Shown here: positions 53,427 to 63,672 of the stretch, piece after piece | How the letters are laid out: each line of letters opens with the position of its first letter | Position numbering within the stretch: position 1 is the stretch's first letter | Source of the DNA: Streptomyces sp. DvalAA-14 | GTDB taxonomy: Bacteria > Actinomycetota > Actinomycetes > Streptomycetales > Streptomycetaceae | Assembly: GCF_900091855.1 (NCBI RefSeq) | Contig: NZ_FMCH01000325.1 | Coordinates: forward strand, 62,001 to 126,000 | Reading direction: 5' to 3' | Length of the DNA stretch: 64,000 bases | The notes under the pieces: generated by a model | The model's database searches: none | Told to the model about the DNA's origin: nothing | Seen by the model: only the letters and a program-made list of their open reading frames with translations | Translations under genes and position numbers: made by a program

Positions 53427-53697
53427 GAGGTGAACGTAACAGCCTGACCTGCGGATCAAGAGGCAGACACGGTAGGGGGCTATTCTTCCGCGCGCCCGAC
53501 TGGATTCTCGAAAAACGTGAATACCGGGAAGCCGGATCACCCCCCGAAGGAGCGGCTTGCGGGAAACCCCGCAGGAAACCCCGCAGGAAAGCGGACGGCA
53601 CCGATTCGCCCGACCGGCGCACCGGCTTCATCGGGCGCAAAATGGAGAGCGGACCACCACACCCCGGGAAGCGTGTGCCGGCGCATCGATCGATGGG

Positions 53698-55937
53698 ATG
53701 CAGGGGATGGCCGAATCCAGTAAAGGAAAGCCCTGGTCCGCGGAGGACATTCTCGGCCTGGTCGGTGCTGCCACCGCGGTGGTCGGTGGCGACGGGATCG
53801 TCCTGGGCTGGACGGTGGCCGCCGAGCGGGCCACGGGCTACCGCGCGGAGGAAGTGGTGGGCCGGCCCGCCGCGCGGCTGCTGGCCGAGACGTCCGTCGA
53901 GCTCGCCGCCTGGGCGGCGCGCGTCCGGGCCCGCGAACCGTGGTCGGGCGCGATCCGGCTGCGCACCAAGGGCGGCTCGGCCGTCCGGATGACGGTGGAG
54001 GCGTCCCCGCTGGCCGGCCGAGGCCGCGGGGACTGGTTCGTGACCGTCACCGATCCCACCGGGGCGCTGTCCTGGCGGCCGGCGCGGCCGTCGGCAGCGG
54101 TGGGGCCCCTGGCTCGCTCGCCGGTCGGGCTGTCCATCTGGGACACCGATCTGCGCTGCGTGTGGCTCAACGACGCGGCCGAGCGGCAGGACGGCGTACT
54201 GCGGCGCCGGCGGCTGGGGCGCCTGATGACCGAGGTGCAGCCCGGCGACATGGGCAGGTCGGTCGTGGTCGCGATGCGGCAGGTGCTGGAGACCGGTGAG
54301 CCCGTCATCGAGCGGGAGTACACCTGGCGCATCCCGGGTGAGGACGAGGAGCGCCTGCTGTCGGCCTCGTACTTCCGGCTGGACGGGGCGGACGGCAAGC
54401 CGATCGGGGTGGTCAACATGGCCACCGACATCGAGAACTCCCGGGTCCGCCAGCATCTGATGATCCTCGGCCAGGCCGGCAACCGCATCGGCACCACCCT
54501 GGATGTCATCAGGACCGCCCAAGAGCTCGCCGACGCCGCGGTGCCGCTGATAGCCGACTTCGTCACCGTCGACCTGGGGGAGACCGTCCCGCTCGGCGAG
54601 GAACCTCTGCAGCGGCTCCCGTCCTCCGAAGCCGGCATTCCGGTATTCCGCCGCGCGGGCATGGCCTCCGTCCACGAAGGGGTGCCCGAAGCGGTGTGGC
54701 GGGTCGGCGACGCCGTCCTCGTGCCGTCCGACTCCCCTTTCACCCGCACGCTGGTCACCGGGAAGCCGTATCTCCAGGCGGCGGTCGACTTCTCACCCGG
54801 CAGCTGGTTGAACCGCGACCCCAACCGCTTGCGAGCGGTGCGGGAGACGGGCATGCACTCGCTGATGATCGTCCCGCTGCGGGCGCGCGGGACCCTGCTC
54901 GGGGAAGCGGTCTTCGTCCGCAACGAGAACAAGGTGCCGTTCTCCGGGGACGACCTGCTGCTGGTCGAGGAGTTGGCGGGCCGGGCCTCCCTGAGTCTGG
55001 ACAACGCGCGCCGGTACACCCGGGAGCGGGCCGCGTCCATCGCGCTGCAGCGCAACCTGCTGCCGCACAACCTGTCCGGCGGCGGCGCGGTGGAACTGGC
55101 CTCGCGGTATCTGCCGGCCGACACCCACGAAGGGGTGGGCGGCGACTGGTTCGACGCGATCCCGCTGCCCGACGCCCGGGTCGGCCTGGTGGTCGGCGAC
55201 GTCGTCGGCCACGGCATCAACGCCGCCGCCCTGATGGGCCAGCTCCGCACCATCATCCGCACTCTCGCCGACCAGGACCTGCCGCCCCAGGAACTGCTCG
55301 CCCGGCTCGACCGGCTGATCCTGCCGGTGACCGAGCAGGACGGCAACGCCGAGGGCTTCGCCGGCCCGGTGATGAGCTGCACCTGCGCCTACGCCGTCTA
55401 CGACCCCGTCACCGGCACCTGCACCATGGCCTCGGCCGGCCACCCGCCGCCCGCGGTGCTGTGGCCCGACGGCCACGTCACCTTCCCCGACGTGCCGCCC
55501 GGACCGCCGATCGGCATGGGCCTGATGTCCTACGAGCCCTTCGCGCTGGAACTCCCCGAGAACAGCACCCTGGCCCTGTACACCGACGGCCTCATCGAAA
55601 CCCGCACCGCCGACCTCGACACCGGCATGGGCCGGCTCCGTTCGGCCCTCAGCGGACCTTCGACCCCGCTGGAGCAGCTCTGCACGCGAGTGATCGACAC
55701 CATGACTCCGCGGCGCCGGGACGGGGTGATGGTGCCGGACGCCGAGACGGGCGTGTACGCGGACGATGTCGCCCTGCTCATGGCCCGCACCCGGGTGCGG
55801 CAGGAATTACCGACGACCGGCCGCCGCCACTTCGGCTCACGCGTCGGGTCCTGCGCGTCCGACGCACCACCTCCGCCCGGGCTCACCGGGCAGGAACGGC
55901 ACATCGAAGCGGAGACCGGTCCACCCGTCGGGAGTAG
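53698..55937 (+). CDS. PAS/GAF/SpoIIE-type PP2C phosphatase, 3' end disrupted
   Basis: Two PAS-like domains (residues about 10-110 and 130-245), a GAF domain (about 260-430, LLLVEELAGRASLSLDNARRYTRER) and a PP2C/SpoIIE phosphatase domain follow in order. The last has EGVGGDWFDAIPL, VVGDVVGHGINAAALMGQLRT, SAGHPPPAVL and ALYTDGLIETR. The usual DDVALLMARTR end is reached at about 55797. Instead of a stop, the frame stays open through the amidase to 58186-58188. The end given is the first stop in another frame (TAG), 23 bp before the amidase, so a frameshift near 55800-55930 is likely. It lacks the C-terminal ATPase domain common in relatives. Confidence 0.7.
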
Positions 55938-55960
55938 ACCGATCCAGGAAAGGGTGCAGC

Positions 55961-57367
55961 ATGACGATCGACCTCACGTACTCGGACGCGACCGAACTCG
56001 CCGAGCTGATCCGTACCCGCAAGGTGTCTTCCGTCGAGGTGGTGCAGGCACACCTCGACCGCATCGAGGCCCTGAACCCGAGGCTCAACGCCGTCGTCAC
56101 CCTTGCCGACGGTTCGCTGGAGGCCGCGCGGGCGGCGGACGAGGAACTCGCGGCGGGCGGCGACGTCGGGCCGCTGCACGGCGTGCCCTTCACCGCCAAG
56201 GACTCGTTCGACACCGCCGGAGTGCTCACCCAGCGCGCCTCGCCGATCTTCGCCGGTCGCATCCCGGACACCGACGCCACCGCCGTGGCGCGCATCAAGA
56301 GGGCCGGAGCGATCCTGCTGGCCAAGACCAACCTCCCGGAGTTCTCCTACTGGATCGAGACCGACAACCTCCTGACGGGCAGGACGAACAACCCCTGGGA
56401 CCTCGACCGCTCGCCCGGCGGTTCCAGCGGCGGGGAGTCCGCCTCGATCGCGACCGGGATGTCACCGCTCGGACTGGCCAGCGACCTGTCCATCTCGGTG
56501 CGCGGGCCGGCCGCCGACACCGGCGTCGTGTCCTTCAAGCCGACGCACGGACGCATCCCGATGACGGGCATCTGGCCGCGGGCACCGCGCCGCAACTGGC
56601 ACGTCGGCCCCATGGCCCGCAGCATCCGCGACCTCGCACTGGCCTACTCCCTGCTGGCCGGCCCGGACGGCGCCGACGGCTTCGCCACCGCCCCGCGCGA
56701 GTTCGACACCGGCCTGGGCGCCGCGCCGAACCGGCCCGTGCGGGTGGGCTGGCTGACCGACTCCGGACTCGGCCCGACCGACCCGGAGGTCGCGGCAACC
56801 GTGCAGGCAGCCGCCGACGCCCTGCAATCAGCCGGCCTCCCCGTCGACGCCGTGAACATCCCCGCTCTCGCGCGGGACAACTCCAACGACATCTGGACCA
56901 AGCTGAGCACCATGGAGATGAAGCCGGCCTTCGCCGAGGTCACCGCCGGCCACGAGGACCAGCTGTTCAGCTACTCGAAATTCCTGTTCGGCCTGCCCGA
57001 CACACCGGTGGAGGACTACGTCCGGGCCGAACAGGGCATCGAGCGGCTCCGGGACGGCTTCGCGGAGTACTTCCACCAGTACGACGTCCTGCTGCTCCCG
57101 GTCACCACGATCCCCGCCCACCAGCACCAGCTCGAGGAGTTCACCGTGAACGGGAAGACGGTCAACGCCTTCCACGTCCAGTCGACGACCGTCCCGTTCA
57201 GCCTGACCGGACATCCGGCCCTGTCGATGCGATTCGGCACGAGCAGCGACGGCATGCCGATCGCCGTACAGGTGGTGGCCAACCTGCACGCGGAATCGAC
57301 CGTGCTGCACATCGCCTCGCTGCTGGAGTCACTCAGCCCCGTCCGCGGCCAGCACCCCGCCCTCTGA
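55961..57367 (+). CDS. Amidase-signature-family hydrolase
   Basis: The 468-residue protein has the AS-family Lys80 (PFTAKDSF), cis-Ser155 in SPGGSSGGES and Ser179 as nucleophile. The block before the nucleophile reads SDLSISVRGPA, where the family has a Gly-Gly pair (usual TDxGGSxRxPA). KPTHGRIP follows normally. It cleaves an amide; the substrate is unknown. GGAAAGGG lies before the ATG, and the phosphatase frame reads through it in another frame. Confidence 0.85.
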   Translation: MTIDLTYSDATELAELIRTRKVSSVEVVQAHLDRIEALNPRLNAVVTLADGSLEAARAADEELAAGGDVGPLHGVPFTAKDSFDTAGVLTQRASPIFAGRIPDTDATAVARIKRAGAILLAKTNLPEFSYWIETDNLLTGRTNNPWDLDRSPGGSSGGESASIATGMSPLGLASDLSISVRGPAADTGVVSFKPTHGRIPMTGIWPRAPRRNWHVGPMARSIRDLALAYSLLAGPDGADGFATAPREFDTGLGAAPNRPVRVGWLTDSGLGPTDPEVAATVQAAADALQSAGLPVDAVNIPALARDNSNDIWTKLSTMEMKPAFAEVTAGHEDQLFSYSKFLFGLPDTPVEDYVRAEQGIERLRDGFAEYFHQYDVLLLPVTTIPAHQHQLEEFTVNGKTVNAFHVQSTTVPFSLTGHPALSMRFGTSSDGMPIAVQVVANLHAESTVLHIASLLESLSPVRGQHPAL

Positions 57368-57486
57368 CCGCCGGAACGGCCTCGTCCCCCAACGCCCAGG
57401 GGGCGGAGCGCACTGGCCGGCGCGCAGCGGTACGGGGGGGGCCGCCGGCCGGTCGCGGCTCGGGCGGGCCGGGCCGCGTGCGGACG

Positions 57487-58071
57487 CTACGTGCGCCAGT
57501 GCCATCCGAGGGCGAAGTCGACGGCGACCGCGTAGGACACGTACATCAGCCACGCTCCCGTCGCCATGTGGAAGAAACCCAGCACGCGTTCGGCCACGGA
57601 CAGGCCGACCGAGAGGAAGAACTCGCTGAAGTAGACGGCGAACAGACCGAGGAACACCAGGCCGACCGGCCAGTCGCCGACCCGGAAGAACACGGTCGCG
57701 CCCATGGCCGAGATGAGCATGAAGGCCACACACATGCCGGCGTTGGGCCGGGAGTCGTTGCCGCGGTAGCGGTTCCAGCCGATGCTGAACCAGTGGATGC
57801 CGTAGGCGGAGAAGGCGAGGGCGGCCATGTAGAGGGCGCGGTCCTGGAACACCTGGAACCACGTCAGCCCGATGAACAGGATGAAGCCGGAGATGAACTG
57901 GCAGAATCCCGGCAGCCAGACGCCCCACACGCCGAGCGAGCGGTCCACCCGCTCGTCGCGTCGCGGCCAGCCGAGCAACTCGTGCGGCGCCCAGATGAGG
58001 TAACCCGTGCCCAGGCCGAAGAAGCCCAGAGCCAGCGGGGGGAAATTCGAGGGAGCGAAGGTTACCTGCAT
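57487..58071 (-). CDS. Six-helix membrane protein, GPR1/FUN34/YaaH-like
   Basis: The 194-residue protein has six hydrophobic helices and begins FAPSNFPPLALGFFGLGTGYLIW, which resembles the N-P-x-P-L-G-L start of acetate/succinate transporters of the AceTr family. IHWFSIGWNRYRGNDSRPNAG and the final AVAVDFALGWHW fit a streptomycete branch. It may carry a small organic acid such as acetate or formate. It is divergent from the formate dehydrogenase operon, 236 bp apart. GAGGAG lies 10 nt before the ATG. Confidence 0.6.
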   Translation of the reverse strand: MQVTFAPSNFPPLALGFFGLGTGYLIWAPHELLGWPRRDERVDRSLGVWGVWLPGFCQFISGFILFIGLTWFQVFQDRALYMAALAFSAYGIHWFSIGWNRYRGNDSRPNAGMCVAFMLISAMGATVFFRVGDWPVGLVFLGLFAVYFSEFFLSVGLSVAERVLGFFHMATGAWLMYVSYAVAVDFALGWHWRT

Positions 58072-58307
58072 GCCGTCATGTCTCCTCTGACCTGTCCTGC
58101 CCCCCGGTGCCCTGTGCGGAACCGCGGCCTCCGGCGAACTGCTCAGCTGATATGTAACGCATATGGGCGGCCCGCACACCGTGAGTAACCCATACGGCGC
58201 TGGCCGCGCCGCCCCCCGGCGCTCCTGACTTGCGTACCGCCCGCCCGCCGGTACCGTCGGCAGCAAGCGGTCGTGCCGCGACGGTCCGGGCCGGAAGGAG
58301 CAGGCCG

Positions 58308-61300
58308 ATGGGTGTGAAACGGTGGATCGGGCGGTGGCCTGTGTACCGTCAGCTCACCGGGGAGGACCCGTTGGGCCGCGGCAAGGCGGCCCAGTCCCCG
58401 CGCTCGGCCGGACTGGCGCCCCGCACGGAGAGCGCCGACCGGGTGGTGGACTCGATCTGTCCCTATTGCGCCGTGGGGTGCGCCCAGCGCGTCTTCGTCA
58501 AGGACGAGCAGGTCATCCAGATCGAGGGCAATCCGCACAGTCCCATTTCGCGCGGCCGGCTGTGCCCGAAGGGCTCGGCCAGCAAGCAGCTCGTCACCGG
58601 CCCGCAGCGGGTGCAGAAGGTGCGCTACCGGCCGCCCTACGCCACCGAATGGCAGGACCTGGATCTGGACACGGCCATGGACATGGTGGCCGACCGGGTG
58701 CTGGACGCCAGGCGCAGGGGCTGGCAGGACGTCGACGAGGCGGGAAAGACACTCCGGCGGACCATGGGCCTGGCCAGCCTGGGCGGCGCGACCCTGGACA
58801 ACGAGGAAAACTACCTGATCAAGAAGTTGTTCACGGCCCTGGGAGCACTCCAGGTCGAGAACCAGGCCCGTATTTGACACTCCGCCACGGTTCCCGGTCT
58901 GGGAACCTCGTTCGGTCGCGGTGGTGCCACCGACTACCAACAGGACCTGGTCAACTCCGACTGCATCATCATCATGGGCTCGAACATGGCCGAGGCCCAT
59001 CCGGTCGGGTTCCAGTGGGTCATGGAGGCGAAGAACCGCGGCGCCCGGGTCATCCACATCGACCCCCGGTTCACCCGTACCAGCGCGCTGGCCGACCAGC
59101 ACGTCACGCTGCGGGCCGGCACGGACATCGCCTTCCTCGGCGGGGTGATCCACCACATCCTGTCCAACGACCTGTACTTCCGGGAGTACGTGCAGGCCTA
59201 CACCAACGCCTCGTTCCTGGTGGACGAGCGGTTCCAGGACACGGAGGACCTGGACGGACTGTTCGGCGGCTACGACGCGCGCACCGCCGCCTACGACGCG
59301 TCCGTGTGGGCCTACGAGTCCTGCCCGACCGAGGAGCAGCCGGGCCGCCGCTCGAAGGAGCAGTCCCACGGGTACAGCCACGGGGCGAGCGGCCCCGTCA
59401 TGGAGGGATCGGCGCAGGACATCGCCGCCGACCCGACCCTGGAGCATCCCCGGTGCGTCTTCCAGGTGCTCAAGCGGCACTTCTCCCGCTACACCCCGGA
59501 CATGGTGGAGCGGATCTGCGGTGTGCCGCAGGACCTGTTCGCAGAGGTCTGCCGGGCCTGGACGTCGAACTCGGGGCGCGAACGCACCGCCGGCCTGGTC
59601 TACAGCGTGGGCTGGACCCAGCACTCGACCGGCGCCCAGTACATCCGGGCCGGGGCCATCATCCAGCTTTTGCTGGGCAACATCGGCCGTCCGGGCGGCG
59701 GGATCTACGCGCTGCGCGGCCACGCCAGCATCCAGGGCTCCACCGACATCCCGACCCTGTTCAACCTGCTCCCCGGCTACCTCCCGATGCCCGACACCAC
59801 CCACGAGGACCTCAACAGCTACGTGGAGGGCATCAGCGGCCACAACCAGAAGGGATTCTGGGGCAACGCCGGCGCCTACACCGTCTCGCTGCTCAAGGAG
59901 TACTGGGGCGAGGCCGCGACCGCGGACAACGACTACTGCTTCGACTACCTGCCGAGGATCAACGGCGACCACGGTACCTACCGCACCGTGATGGACATGG
60001 TCGACGGCAAGGTGTTCGGCTACTTCCTGCTCGGTCAGAACCCGGCGGTCGGCTCGGCCCACGGCAGGCTGCAACGCCTGGGCATGGCCAACCTCGACTG
60101 GCTGGTCGTCCGCGACCTGGCCATGATCGAAAGTGCCACCTTCTGGAAGGACGCGCCCGAGATCGAGACCGGGGAGATCGCCACCGAGCGCTGCCGTACC
60201 GAGGTGTTCTTCTTCCCCGCCGCCTCGCACGTCGAGAAGTCCGGCACGTTCACCCAGACCCAGCGGATGCTGCAATGGCGCGACCAGGCCGTCGAACCCG
60301 CCGGGGACCAGCGCTCCGAGCTGTGGTTCTTCCACCAGCTCGGCCTGAGGCTGAAGGCCAAGCTCGCCGGCTCGACCGACGAGCGGGACCGTCCGCTGCT
60401 CGACCTGGCCTGGGACTACGACGTGGAGGGCGACGAGCCGTCGTCGGCGGACGTGCTGCGTCACATCAACGGCATCGACCTGCGCACCGGCCGCACGGTC
60501 AGCGGCTACACCGATCTGCGGGCGGACGGCAGCACCTCCTGCGGCTGCTGGATCTACAGCGGTGTCTACGCCGACGAGGTCAACCAGGCCCGCCGCCGGG
60601 TCTCCCGCTTCGAGACCGGCCCCTACGACGGGGAGTGGGGCTGGACCTGGCCGATGAACCGGCGGGTGCTCTACAACCGCGCGTCGGCCGACCCGCAGGG
60701 ACGCCCCTGGAGCGAGCGCAAGAAACTGGTCTGGTGGGACGCGGAGCGCGCCGAGTGGACGGGCCACGACATCCCGGACTTCGAGAAGAACAAGCCGCCG
60801 GAGTACCGACCGCCCGACGGGACGTCGGGACCCGAGGCGCTGCGCGGCGACGACGCGTTCATCATGATGTCCGACGGGAAGGCGTGGCTGTTCGCCCCGG
60901 CCGGGCTGGCCGACGGCCCGCTGCCCACCCACTACGAGCCCGCCGAGTCCCCGGCGCGCAACCTCCTGTACGGCCAGCAGGCCAACCCGGTACGCAAGGT
61001 CTACGGGCGCGCCGACAACCCCGCCAACCCGGCCGCACCCGAGGCGCACGGCGACATCTTCCCCTACGTCTTCGGCGCCGCCCGGCTCACCGAGCACCAC
61101 ACCGCGGGCGGAATGAGCCGCCAGCTCCCCTATCTGGCGGAGCTTCAGCCGGAGCTGTTCGTGGAGGTGTCGCCGGAACTGGCCGCCGAGCGGGGTCTGC
61201 GCCATCTCGACTGGGGCCATGTGATCACCAGCCGGACCGCGGTGGAGGCCCGGGTGGTCGTCACCGACCGGATGGCGCCGCTGCGGATCGACGGCCGGGT

Positions 61301-61598
61301 GGTCCACCAGGTCTGGATGCCCTACCACTGGGGGCAGACCGGCCTGACCACCGGGGACGTGGTCAACGACCTGATCGGGGTGGTGGCCGACCCGAACGTG
61401 TTCATCCAGGAGAGCAAGGTGCTGACCTGCGACGTCCGGCCCGGACGTCGGCCCAGGGGCCCGGAACTGCTGCGGTACGTCGAGGACTACCGGCGGCGCG
61501 CCGGCATCACCCCGCAGACCGGCACCCGCCTGGTGACATCCGGGGACGGCGACAGACCAGCCCACGCGGAGAACGACCGGCCGGAGGAAACACCGTGA
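58308..61598 (+). CDS. Formate dehydrogenase catalytic subunit, selenocysteine-containing
   Basis: This is one gene read through the in-frame TGA at 58875-58877 as selenocysteine (residue 190), giving about 1096 residues. The N-terminus has a [4Fe-4S] site (Cys51, 54, 58 and 86; ICPYCAVGCAQ, RLCPKGS). Around residue 190 it reads NQARI-U-HSATVPGL, matching the Sec-His site of molybdopterin formate dehydrogenases. GRGGATDYQQDLVNSDCIII and HPVGFQWVMEAK, then IDPRFTRTSA, follow. AAGGAG is 8 nt before the ATG. It oxidises formate to CO2 and passes electrons to FdhB. No Tat signal is seen, so the subunit faces the cytoplasm. Confidence 0.9.
58878..58910 (+). promoter_or_regulatory. Bacterial SECIS element within the formate dehydrogenase gene
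   Basis: GGTTCCCGGTCTGGGAACC at 58889-58907 folds as a perfect 7-bp stem with loop GGUCU, starting 11 nt after the UGA. The apical GGUCU loop and the distance are those of the E. coli fdhF/fdnG SECIS bound by SelB. It is inside the coding sequence and reads as SATVPGLGTSF. Confidence 0.9.
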
Positions 61599-62611
61599 CG
61601 CAGGAGCACAGCCTCTACGGGTTGCTCACCGACCCCGCCGCGGACGCCGGCCACCGCGATCACCCGCCCAGGGTGGGTTTCTTCACCGACACCTCGGTGT
61701 GCATCGGCTGCAAGGCGTGCGAGGTGGCCTGCAAGGAGTGGAACGGCGTCCCCGAGGACGGTGTGGACCTGCTGGGCATGTCCTTCGACAACACGGGCAT
61801 GCTGGGCGCGAGTTCCTGGCGGCACGTCGCCTTCATCGAGCAGGACGCCCCGCTGGGCAGGCAGGACGCGGGCCTGCCGGGTCTTCCCACCGGCCCCTCC
61901 GCCACCGGGACCGCGGACCGGACGGTGGCCGCCGCGATGCCCGCGGCGCCGCGGGCCGGCGCCGAACTGGGCACCGGCCCCGTCGACCTGGGATTCCCCT
62001 CGTTCGACCTGCCCGGCGCGGCGACCGGCACGGAGAGCCGCACCGCCTTCCGCTGGCTGATGTCCTCGGACGTGTGCAAGCACTGCACACACGCCGGCTG
62101 CCTGGACGTCTGCCCCACCGGTGCGCTGTTCCGCACCGAATTCGGCTCGGTGGTGGTCCAGCAGGACATCTGCAACGGCTGCGGCTACTGCGTGTCCGGC
62201 TGCCCGTACGGCGTCATCGACCGGCGGCCCGACGACGGCCGGGCCTTCAAGTGCACCCTGTGCTACGACCGGCTGCGCGGCGACATGGAGCCGGCCTGCG
62301 CACAGGCGTGCCCGACCAAGTCCATCCAGTTCGGCCCCCTGGACGAACTGCGGGAGCAGGCCGGCCGGCGGCTGGAACAGCTCCACGAGGCCGGGGTCGG
62401 CGAGGCCCGGCTGTACGGGCACGACCCCGACGACGGGGTGGGCGGCGACGGCGCGTTCTTCCTGCTGCTGGACGAGCCGGAGGTGTACGGACTGCCGCCG
62501 GACCCGGTGGTGCCGACCCGCGACCTGCCGGCGATGTGGAAGTCCGCCGGGCTCGCCGCCTCCGCGCTGCTGGCCGCCTCGGTGGCCGTCTTCCTCGGCG
62601 GTTCGCGTTGA
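61595..62611 (+). CDS. Formate dehydrogenase iron-sulfur (beta) subunit
   Basis: The 338-residue protein has four [4Fe-4S] Cys sets: CIGCKACEVACKEWNG, CKHCTHAGCLDVCPTGA, CNGCGYCVSGCPYG and CTLCYDRLRGD with CAQACPTKSI. A C-terminal helix (GLAASALLAASVAVFLGG) anchors it. It passes electrons from the catalytic subunit to the membrane subunit. The GTG start overlaps the catalytic gene stop by 4 nt, and GGAGG lies 8 nt upstream. Confidence 0.95.
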   Translation: MTQEHSLYGLLTDPAADAGHRDHPPRVGFFTDTSVCIGCKACEVACKEWNGVPEDGVDLLGMSFDNTGMLGASSWRHVAFIEQDAPLGRQDAGLPGLPTGPSATGTADRTVAAAMPAAPRAGAELGTGPVDLGFPSFDLPGAATGTESRTAFRWLMSSDVCKHCTHAGCLDVCPTGALFRTEFGSVVVQQDICNGCGYCVSGCPYGVIDRRPDDGRAFKCTLCYDRLRGDMEPACAQACPTKSIQFGPLDELREQAGRRLEQLHEAGVGEARLYGHDPDDGVGGDGAFFLLLDEPEVYGLPPDPVVPTRDLPAMWKSAGLAASALLAASVAVFLGGSR

Positions 62612-63672
62612 GCGCGGGACAGGTCCGGCCGGCGACCCCCCGCGCCGGGGCCGCCGGGCTGTGGGCGCGCGCCGTGGCCCGCATCGGTACGGGACGGCAC
62701 GAGCCGGCCACCGGGACACCGCCCGGGCACCGCTCCTACTACGGCCGGCCCGTGCTCAAACCCCCGGTGTGGGAGTGGGGGGTCCCGGCGTACTTCTTCA
62801 CCGGCGGACTTTCGGCCGGCTCCGCGCTGCTGGCGGCCGGCGCCGACCTGACGGGGCGACCGGCGCTGCGCAAGGCGGGCCGCCTGGGCGGTTTCGCCGC
62901 CCTCCTGGTCAGTTCGTACCTGCTGGTCGCCGACCTCGGCAGGCCGGAGCGCTTCCACCACATGCTGCGCGTCGCCAAGCCGACCTCGCCGATGTCGGTG
63001 GGCACCTGGATCCTGGTGGCCTACGGGCCGGGCAGTGCGCTGGCCGCCGGGGCCGAACTGCTCCCGCGCTCGGTGCGCGCCACCCTCCCGGGCCGGCTGC
63101 TGGTGACGGCCGCCCGCCCGGCGGGGATGTCCGCGGCCCTGCTCGCCCCGGCGCTCGCCTCCTACACGGCGGTGCTGCTCTCCCAGACGGCGGTGCCGGC
63201 CTGGCACGAGGCCCGCGCGGAGCTGCCGTTCGTCTTCACCGGATCGGCGGCGGCCAGCGGCGGCGGGCTGGGGATGCTGCTGGCGCCGGTGACCGAGGCG
63301 GGCCCGGCCCGACGGCTCGCCGCGGCCGGCGCCGCGGCCGAACTCCTCGCGTCGCGGCTGATCGAACGGCGTCCCGGGCTGGTGCCCACCGCGTTCACCA
63401 CCGGCCGGGCACACCGGCTGCGGCAGGCGTCGCAGTGGCTGACGCTGGGCGGCGCGGTCGCCGCGGTCACGGTGGCCCGGCGCAGCCGGCCGGCCGCGGC
63501 CGCGGCGGGAGCGGCCCTGCTGGCCGGCAGCGTGCTGCAGCGCTTCGGCGTGTTCGAGGCGGGCGTGGCCTCCACCAAGGATCCGGCCTACGTGGTGGTG
63601 CCGCAGCGGGAGCGGCTGCGGACCACCGGCGGGGTGGCCCGGGAGGCGGGGGCGTCCGACCCGGGCCGCTGA
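62608..63672 (+). CDS. NrfD/PsrC-like membrane subunit of formate dehydrogenase
   Basis: The 354-residue protein has about eight to nine helices, opening PPVWEWGVPAYFFTGGLSAGSALLA, the NrfD pattern, and containing DLGRPERFHHMLRVAKPTSPMSVGTWILVAYG. NrfD proteins transfer electrons to quinones without haem. The start is a TTG overlapping the previous stop (TTGA). With the catalytic and beta subunits it completes a quinone-reducing formate dehydrogenase. No further formate dehydrogenase subunit follows on this strand. Confidence 0.9.
   Translation: MSAGQVRPATPRAGAAGLWARAVARIGTGRHEPATGTPPGHRSYYGRPVLKPPVWEWGVPAYFFTGGLSAGSALLAAGADLTGRPALRKAGRLGGFAALLVSSYLLVADLGRPERFHHMLRVAKPTSPMSVGTWILVAYGPGSALAAGAELLPRSVRATLPGRLLVTAARPAGMSAALLAPALASYTAVLLSQTAVPAWHEARAELPFVFTGSAAASGGGLGMLLAPVTEAGPARRLAAAGAAAELLASRLIERRPGLVPTAFTTGRAHRLRQASQWLTLGGAVAAVTVARRSRPAAAAAGAALLAGSVLQRFGVFEAGVASTKDPAYVVVPQRERLRTTGGVAREAGASDPGR

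Follow-up and report, generated by a model that had tools for sequence, protein, structure and literature searches.

A predicted selenocysteine-containing formate dehydrogenase encoded with a conserved SECIS and a complete sel gene set in Streptomyces sp. DvalAA-14

Results

A formate dehydrogenase operon interrupted by a single in-frame UGA

Analysis of a 64,000-nt stretch of the Streptomyces sp. DvalAA-14 genome (hereafter, the window) uncovered a three-gene operon for the alpha, beta, and gamma subunits of a putative formate dehydrogenase (FDH; Table 1). The alpha frame starts at an ATG immediately preceded by a Shine-Dalgarno sequence (GGAAGGAG) and continues to a stop codon at 61596-61598, with the UGA at codon 190 as its sole interruption. 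Third-position GC is 90% on the 5′ side of the UGA and 94% on the 3′ side, and both halves of the frame therefore look coding. The downstream frames are open and each overlaps its predecessor by 4 nt, and the occurrence of a 4Fe-4S beta subunit and a membrane gamma subunit in one operon is the arrangement of a membrane-bound FDH complex. Directly upstream, a long frame on the forward strand (53557-58188) contains PAS, GAF, and SpoIIE phosphatase domains, and is a typical streptomycete sensor phosphatase.

Table 1 Features of the FDH operon and the sel genes. The sel genes lie a few kb beyond the operon on one and the same contig, and their coordinates continue the window numbering.
Feature	Position	Strand	Basis
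fdh alpha subunit, predicted selenoprotein, 1096 aa with Sec190	58308..61598	+	NF041513, 1926 bits, E = 0; alignment spanning the UGA with 1KQF and 1H0H
UGA codon, probably read as selenocysteine	58875..58877	+	UGA in 80/80 close relatives; aligns with Sec (X) of 1KQF and 1H0H
Bacterial SECIS, loop GGUCU	58889..58907 (conserved core stem 58890-58906)	+	Predicted fold; synonymous-site covariation; absent in Cys homologues
fdh beta subunit (4Fe-4S iron-sulfur protein), ATGA overlap with alpha	61595..62611	+	Fer4_11, E = 3e-23; other Fer4 families
fdh gamma subunit (NrfD-type membrane anchor), 4-nt overlap with beta	62608..63672	+	NrfD, E = 5e-16
selD	about 67191-68120	-	Above curated cut-off
selC (tRNA-Sec)	68294-68387	+	Above curated cut-off; ARAGORN call, anticodon UCA
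selB	68444-70234	-	Above curated cut-off; Pfam SelB with C-terminal winged-helix domain
selA	70241-71626	-	Above curated cut-off; Pfam SelA

When translated through the UGA, the alpha protein matches the NCBIfam model for actinobacterial formate dehydrogenase (NF041513, formate_DH_Act) over its whole length (profile positions 2-1067 of 1067), at 1926 bits against a curated cut-off of 1400. The model also scores cysteine (Cys) forms above that cut-off, and the present gene is the selenocysteine (Sec) form: in the alignment, residue 190 falls opposite the Sec, shown as X, of both E. coli FDH-N (1KQF) and a Desulfovibrio FDH (1H0H). A UGA at the known Sec position that is conserved among homologues is one mark of a selenoprotein gene, and the alpha gene has it.

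The SECIS is conserved by covariation at synonymous sites

Eleven nucleotides 3′ of the UGA begins a 7-bp stem, all Watson-Crick, composed of a 5′ arm (58889-58895), a GGTCT loop (58896-58900), and a 3′ arm (58901-58907). The gene thus contains a second mark of a selenoprotein, a SECIS with a GGU-type loop directly after the UGA. The two strands of the window contain 1261 TGA triplets. A perfect 7-bp stem at 9-13 nt spacing follows six of them, and only the alpha UGA has a GGU loop in addition. The sequence folds into this stem-loop, although the 49-nt stretch has a minimum free energy that is ordinary for GC-rich sequence when compared with shuffles (z = -0.23). Folding energy alone therefore proves nothing; the placement of the stem is telling, and conservation becomes the real test. 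A scan of the window against Rfam gave no match at the gathering threshold and no bacterial SECIS family.

In order to assess conservation, the window sequence was considered along with 80 close relatives recovered from genome contigs. The UGA is present in 81/81 sequences, and the loop reads GGUCU in 80 and AGUCU in one. At UGA offsets +17/+29, the paired bases are CG in 42 sequences, UA in 30, UG in 6, and GU in 3, with no mismatch; both offsets are third codon positions, so synonymous changes stay paired. In the set reduced to 22 distinct sequences, pairing holds in 132 of 132 cells, and the observed covariation score exceeds that of every shuffle; in slid controls, 33-69% of cells pair. 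The outermost (seventh) pair is not kept in the relatives, and the conserved core stem is therefore 6 bp.

These results bear out the initial annotation, which had read an in-frame UGA at the FDH Sec position, a GGUCU loop on a 7-bp stem 11 nt beyond it (6 bp of which are conserved in relatives), two full-length halves, and intact, overlapping downstream subunits. It had also considered that close homologues might carry Cys and show no SECIS conservation; instead, the UGA and the SECIS are kept in all 80 relatives.

A complete set of selenocysteine genes accompanies the operon

The initial annotation had proposed a search for selA, selB, selD, and a selC tRNA, and all four are encoded in the genome, scoring above curated cut-offs; this is the gene set that defines the bacterial Sec-decoding trait. 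The interval between the FDH operon and selD (L016 7888-9914; 64888-66914 in window coordinates, past the window end) contains genes for a substrate-binding protein of the phosphonate type and for an acyl-CoA dehydrogenase-like product. The distance from the FDH gene to the tRNA-Sec is ~3 kb shorter in three Streptomycetaceae relatives (L023-L025). A genome search with a model built from the alpha SECIS recovered the FDH gene as the only significant match (77.6 bits; next match 19.1 bits, E = 0.33), although the model is FDH-specific and a different selenoprotein could escape it.

The UGA form co-occurs with tRNA-Sec, and cysteine forms have lost the SECIS

Across 35 genomes of the genus, seven encode a UGA-type FDH (G000, G001, G008, G010, G014, G025, and G026), in G014 as two pieces. 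A tRNA-Sec above the cut-off occurs in exactly the same seven genomes, and the other 28 contain neither; if shared ancestry is disregarded, so exact a match would arise by chance about once in 6.7 million. One of these genomes, G026, contains two tRNA-Sec genes above the cut-off (C1:2647701-2647792 and C1:9281910-9282001). The initial annotation had called selenoproteins uncommon in streptomycete-like genomes; the trait is indeed a minority one, but at this frequency it is not rare.

Other genomes of the genus encode an FDH homologue with TGC (Cys) at the Sec position. In these homologues the loop has mostly shifted from GGTCT, for example to GGCCT or GGGCT, and the stem-forming Pro codon is changed to Ala or another residue. 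The Cys homologues, which have no UGA, have thus lost the SECIS, and the stem-loop is retained only alongside the UGA. In a tree of 68 sequences, all Cys forms make up one group (SH-aLRT 97) that lies beside Sec forms and is flanked on either side by Sec lineages. This topology suggests that Sec was converted to Cys once; the tree was rooted at the midpoint after a short search, and serves as a lead only.

Together, these patterns bear on two other ways of reading the UGA. Were it a real stop, arising from a nonsense mutation or sequencing error, the locus would be a pseudogene or encode two split proteins, and a mechanical ORF call does yield separate products of 215 aa and 874 aa. However, the identical codon is present in 80/80 relatives, the SECIS is lost only where Cys replaces the UGA, and a full sel set is encoded nearby, making a genuine stop exceedingly improbable. 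The pseudogene and sequencing-error readings were rejected because the UGA and SECIS are conserved. Near-cognate suppression, in which Cys or Trp rather than Sec is inserted, has nothing specific in its favor, although Cys serves the same position in homologues and might conceivably replace Sec when selenium is limiting; the conserved SECIS and a dedicated tRNA-Sec whose distribution across genomes matches that of the UGA form exactly make it very unlikely.

Discussion

We consider it nearly certain from sequence comparison that 58308-61598 encodes the alpha subunit of a membrane-bound formate dehydrogenase that depends on molybdopterin and has Sec as its catalytic residue 190. The sequence yielded nothing that speaks against this reading. 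Alongside the observed gene structure, SECIS conservation, and complete sel set, a route to the active enzyme can be proposed. SelA and SelD would make Sec-tRNA and selenophosphate, and SelB with Sec-tRNA (selC, anticodon UCA) would bind the GGUCU stem-loop after the UGA and decode that codon as Sec. The enzyme would then oxidize formate, its expected substrate, to CO2, and electrons would pass through beta and then gamma to the quinone pool as the likely acceptor.

In E. coli FDH-N, the gamma subunit is a cytochrome b. The present alpha protein is homologous to that of FDH-N (1KQF) over nearly its full length, with Sec at the same position, but differs in that no twin-arginine motif was seen in the alpha N-terminus and in that its gamma subunit is of the NrfD type. 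Because the motif was not seen, the active site is probably cytoplasmic.

Sec-type FDH is already known from many actinobacteria, and the present gene adds one genome to a known selenium trait. FDH alpha is the most widespread bacterial selenoprotein, occurring in 822 organisms in a survey of >5200 genomes, and it is frequently the sole selenoprotein of genomes that acquired the Sec trait by transfer, where the sel genes lie close by (PMC5029168). A Sec-FDH (FDH-O) with a SECIS and selABCD close by was reported in 2015 from Streptomyces incarnatus NRRL8089, in which, as here, the SECIS directly follows the UGA and the sel genes cluster near the alpha gene (PMC4498112); the species differ, but nothing of substance is known to distinguish the two systems. 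In Actinomycetospora chiangmaiensis (2020), formic acid removal is selenite-dependent, and the proteins detected include FDH, SelA, SelB, and SelD (PMC7176365). We infer Sec incorporation and activity for the present organism; in A. chiangmaiensis both have direct support. Its FDH1 is likewise a membrane-bound FdhABC with Sec, where selA and selB belong to the same, expressed cluster (PMC7176365), but selD is unlisted in that cluster and A. chiangmaiensis encodes three Sec-FDHs versus the one found here.

Within about 29.5-39.4 kb of the Arthrobacter sp. YA7-1 plasmid pYA7-1a (NZ_CP110115.1; L148 / L152), a Sec-FDH operon, selA, selB, selD, and tRNA-Sec are encoded within 10 kb. The plasmid is 130 kb in length and is typed as conjugative; a Tn3 transposase adjoins the Sec trait and an integrase lies a few kb away. 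It may be that the FDH operon and selABCD constitute one transferable block among actinobacteria, and that in Streptomycetaceae and relatives the enzyme became independent of the selenium machinery through a single conversion of Sec to Cys, a scenario to which we give an even chance.

RefSeq annotates an Arthrobacter Sec homologue as a single 1110-aa CDS across its UGA. The expectation in the initial annotation that a standard pipeline would miss the gene is therefore too strong as a general claim, since for at least one homologue the RefSeq annotation continues across the UGA, and NCBIfam provides NF041513. The analysis confirms the correct reading of a recoded gene, a finding that is correct but ordinary. 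The Sec block of pYA7-1a represents a portable extension of the genetic code together with its one user, and the side-by-side occurrence of Sec and Cys forms within one genus, both of them in G001, would offer a clean system for measuring the benefit of Sec to FDH in an aerobic soil bacterium.
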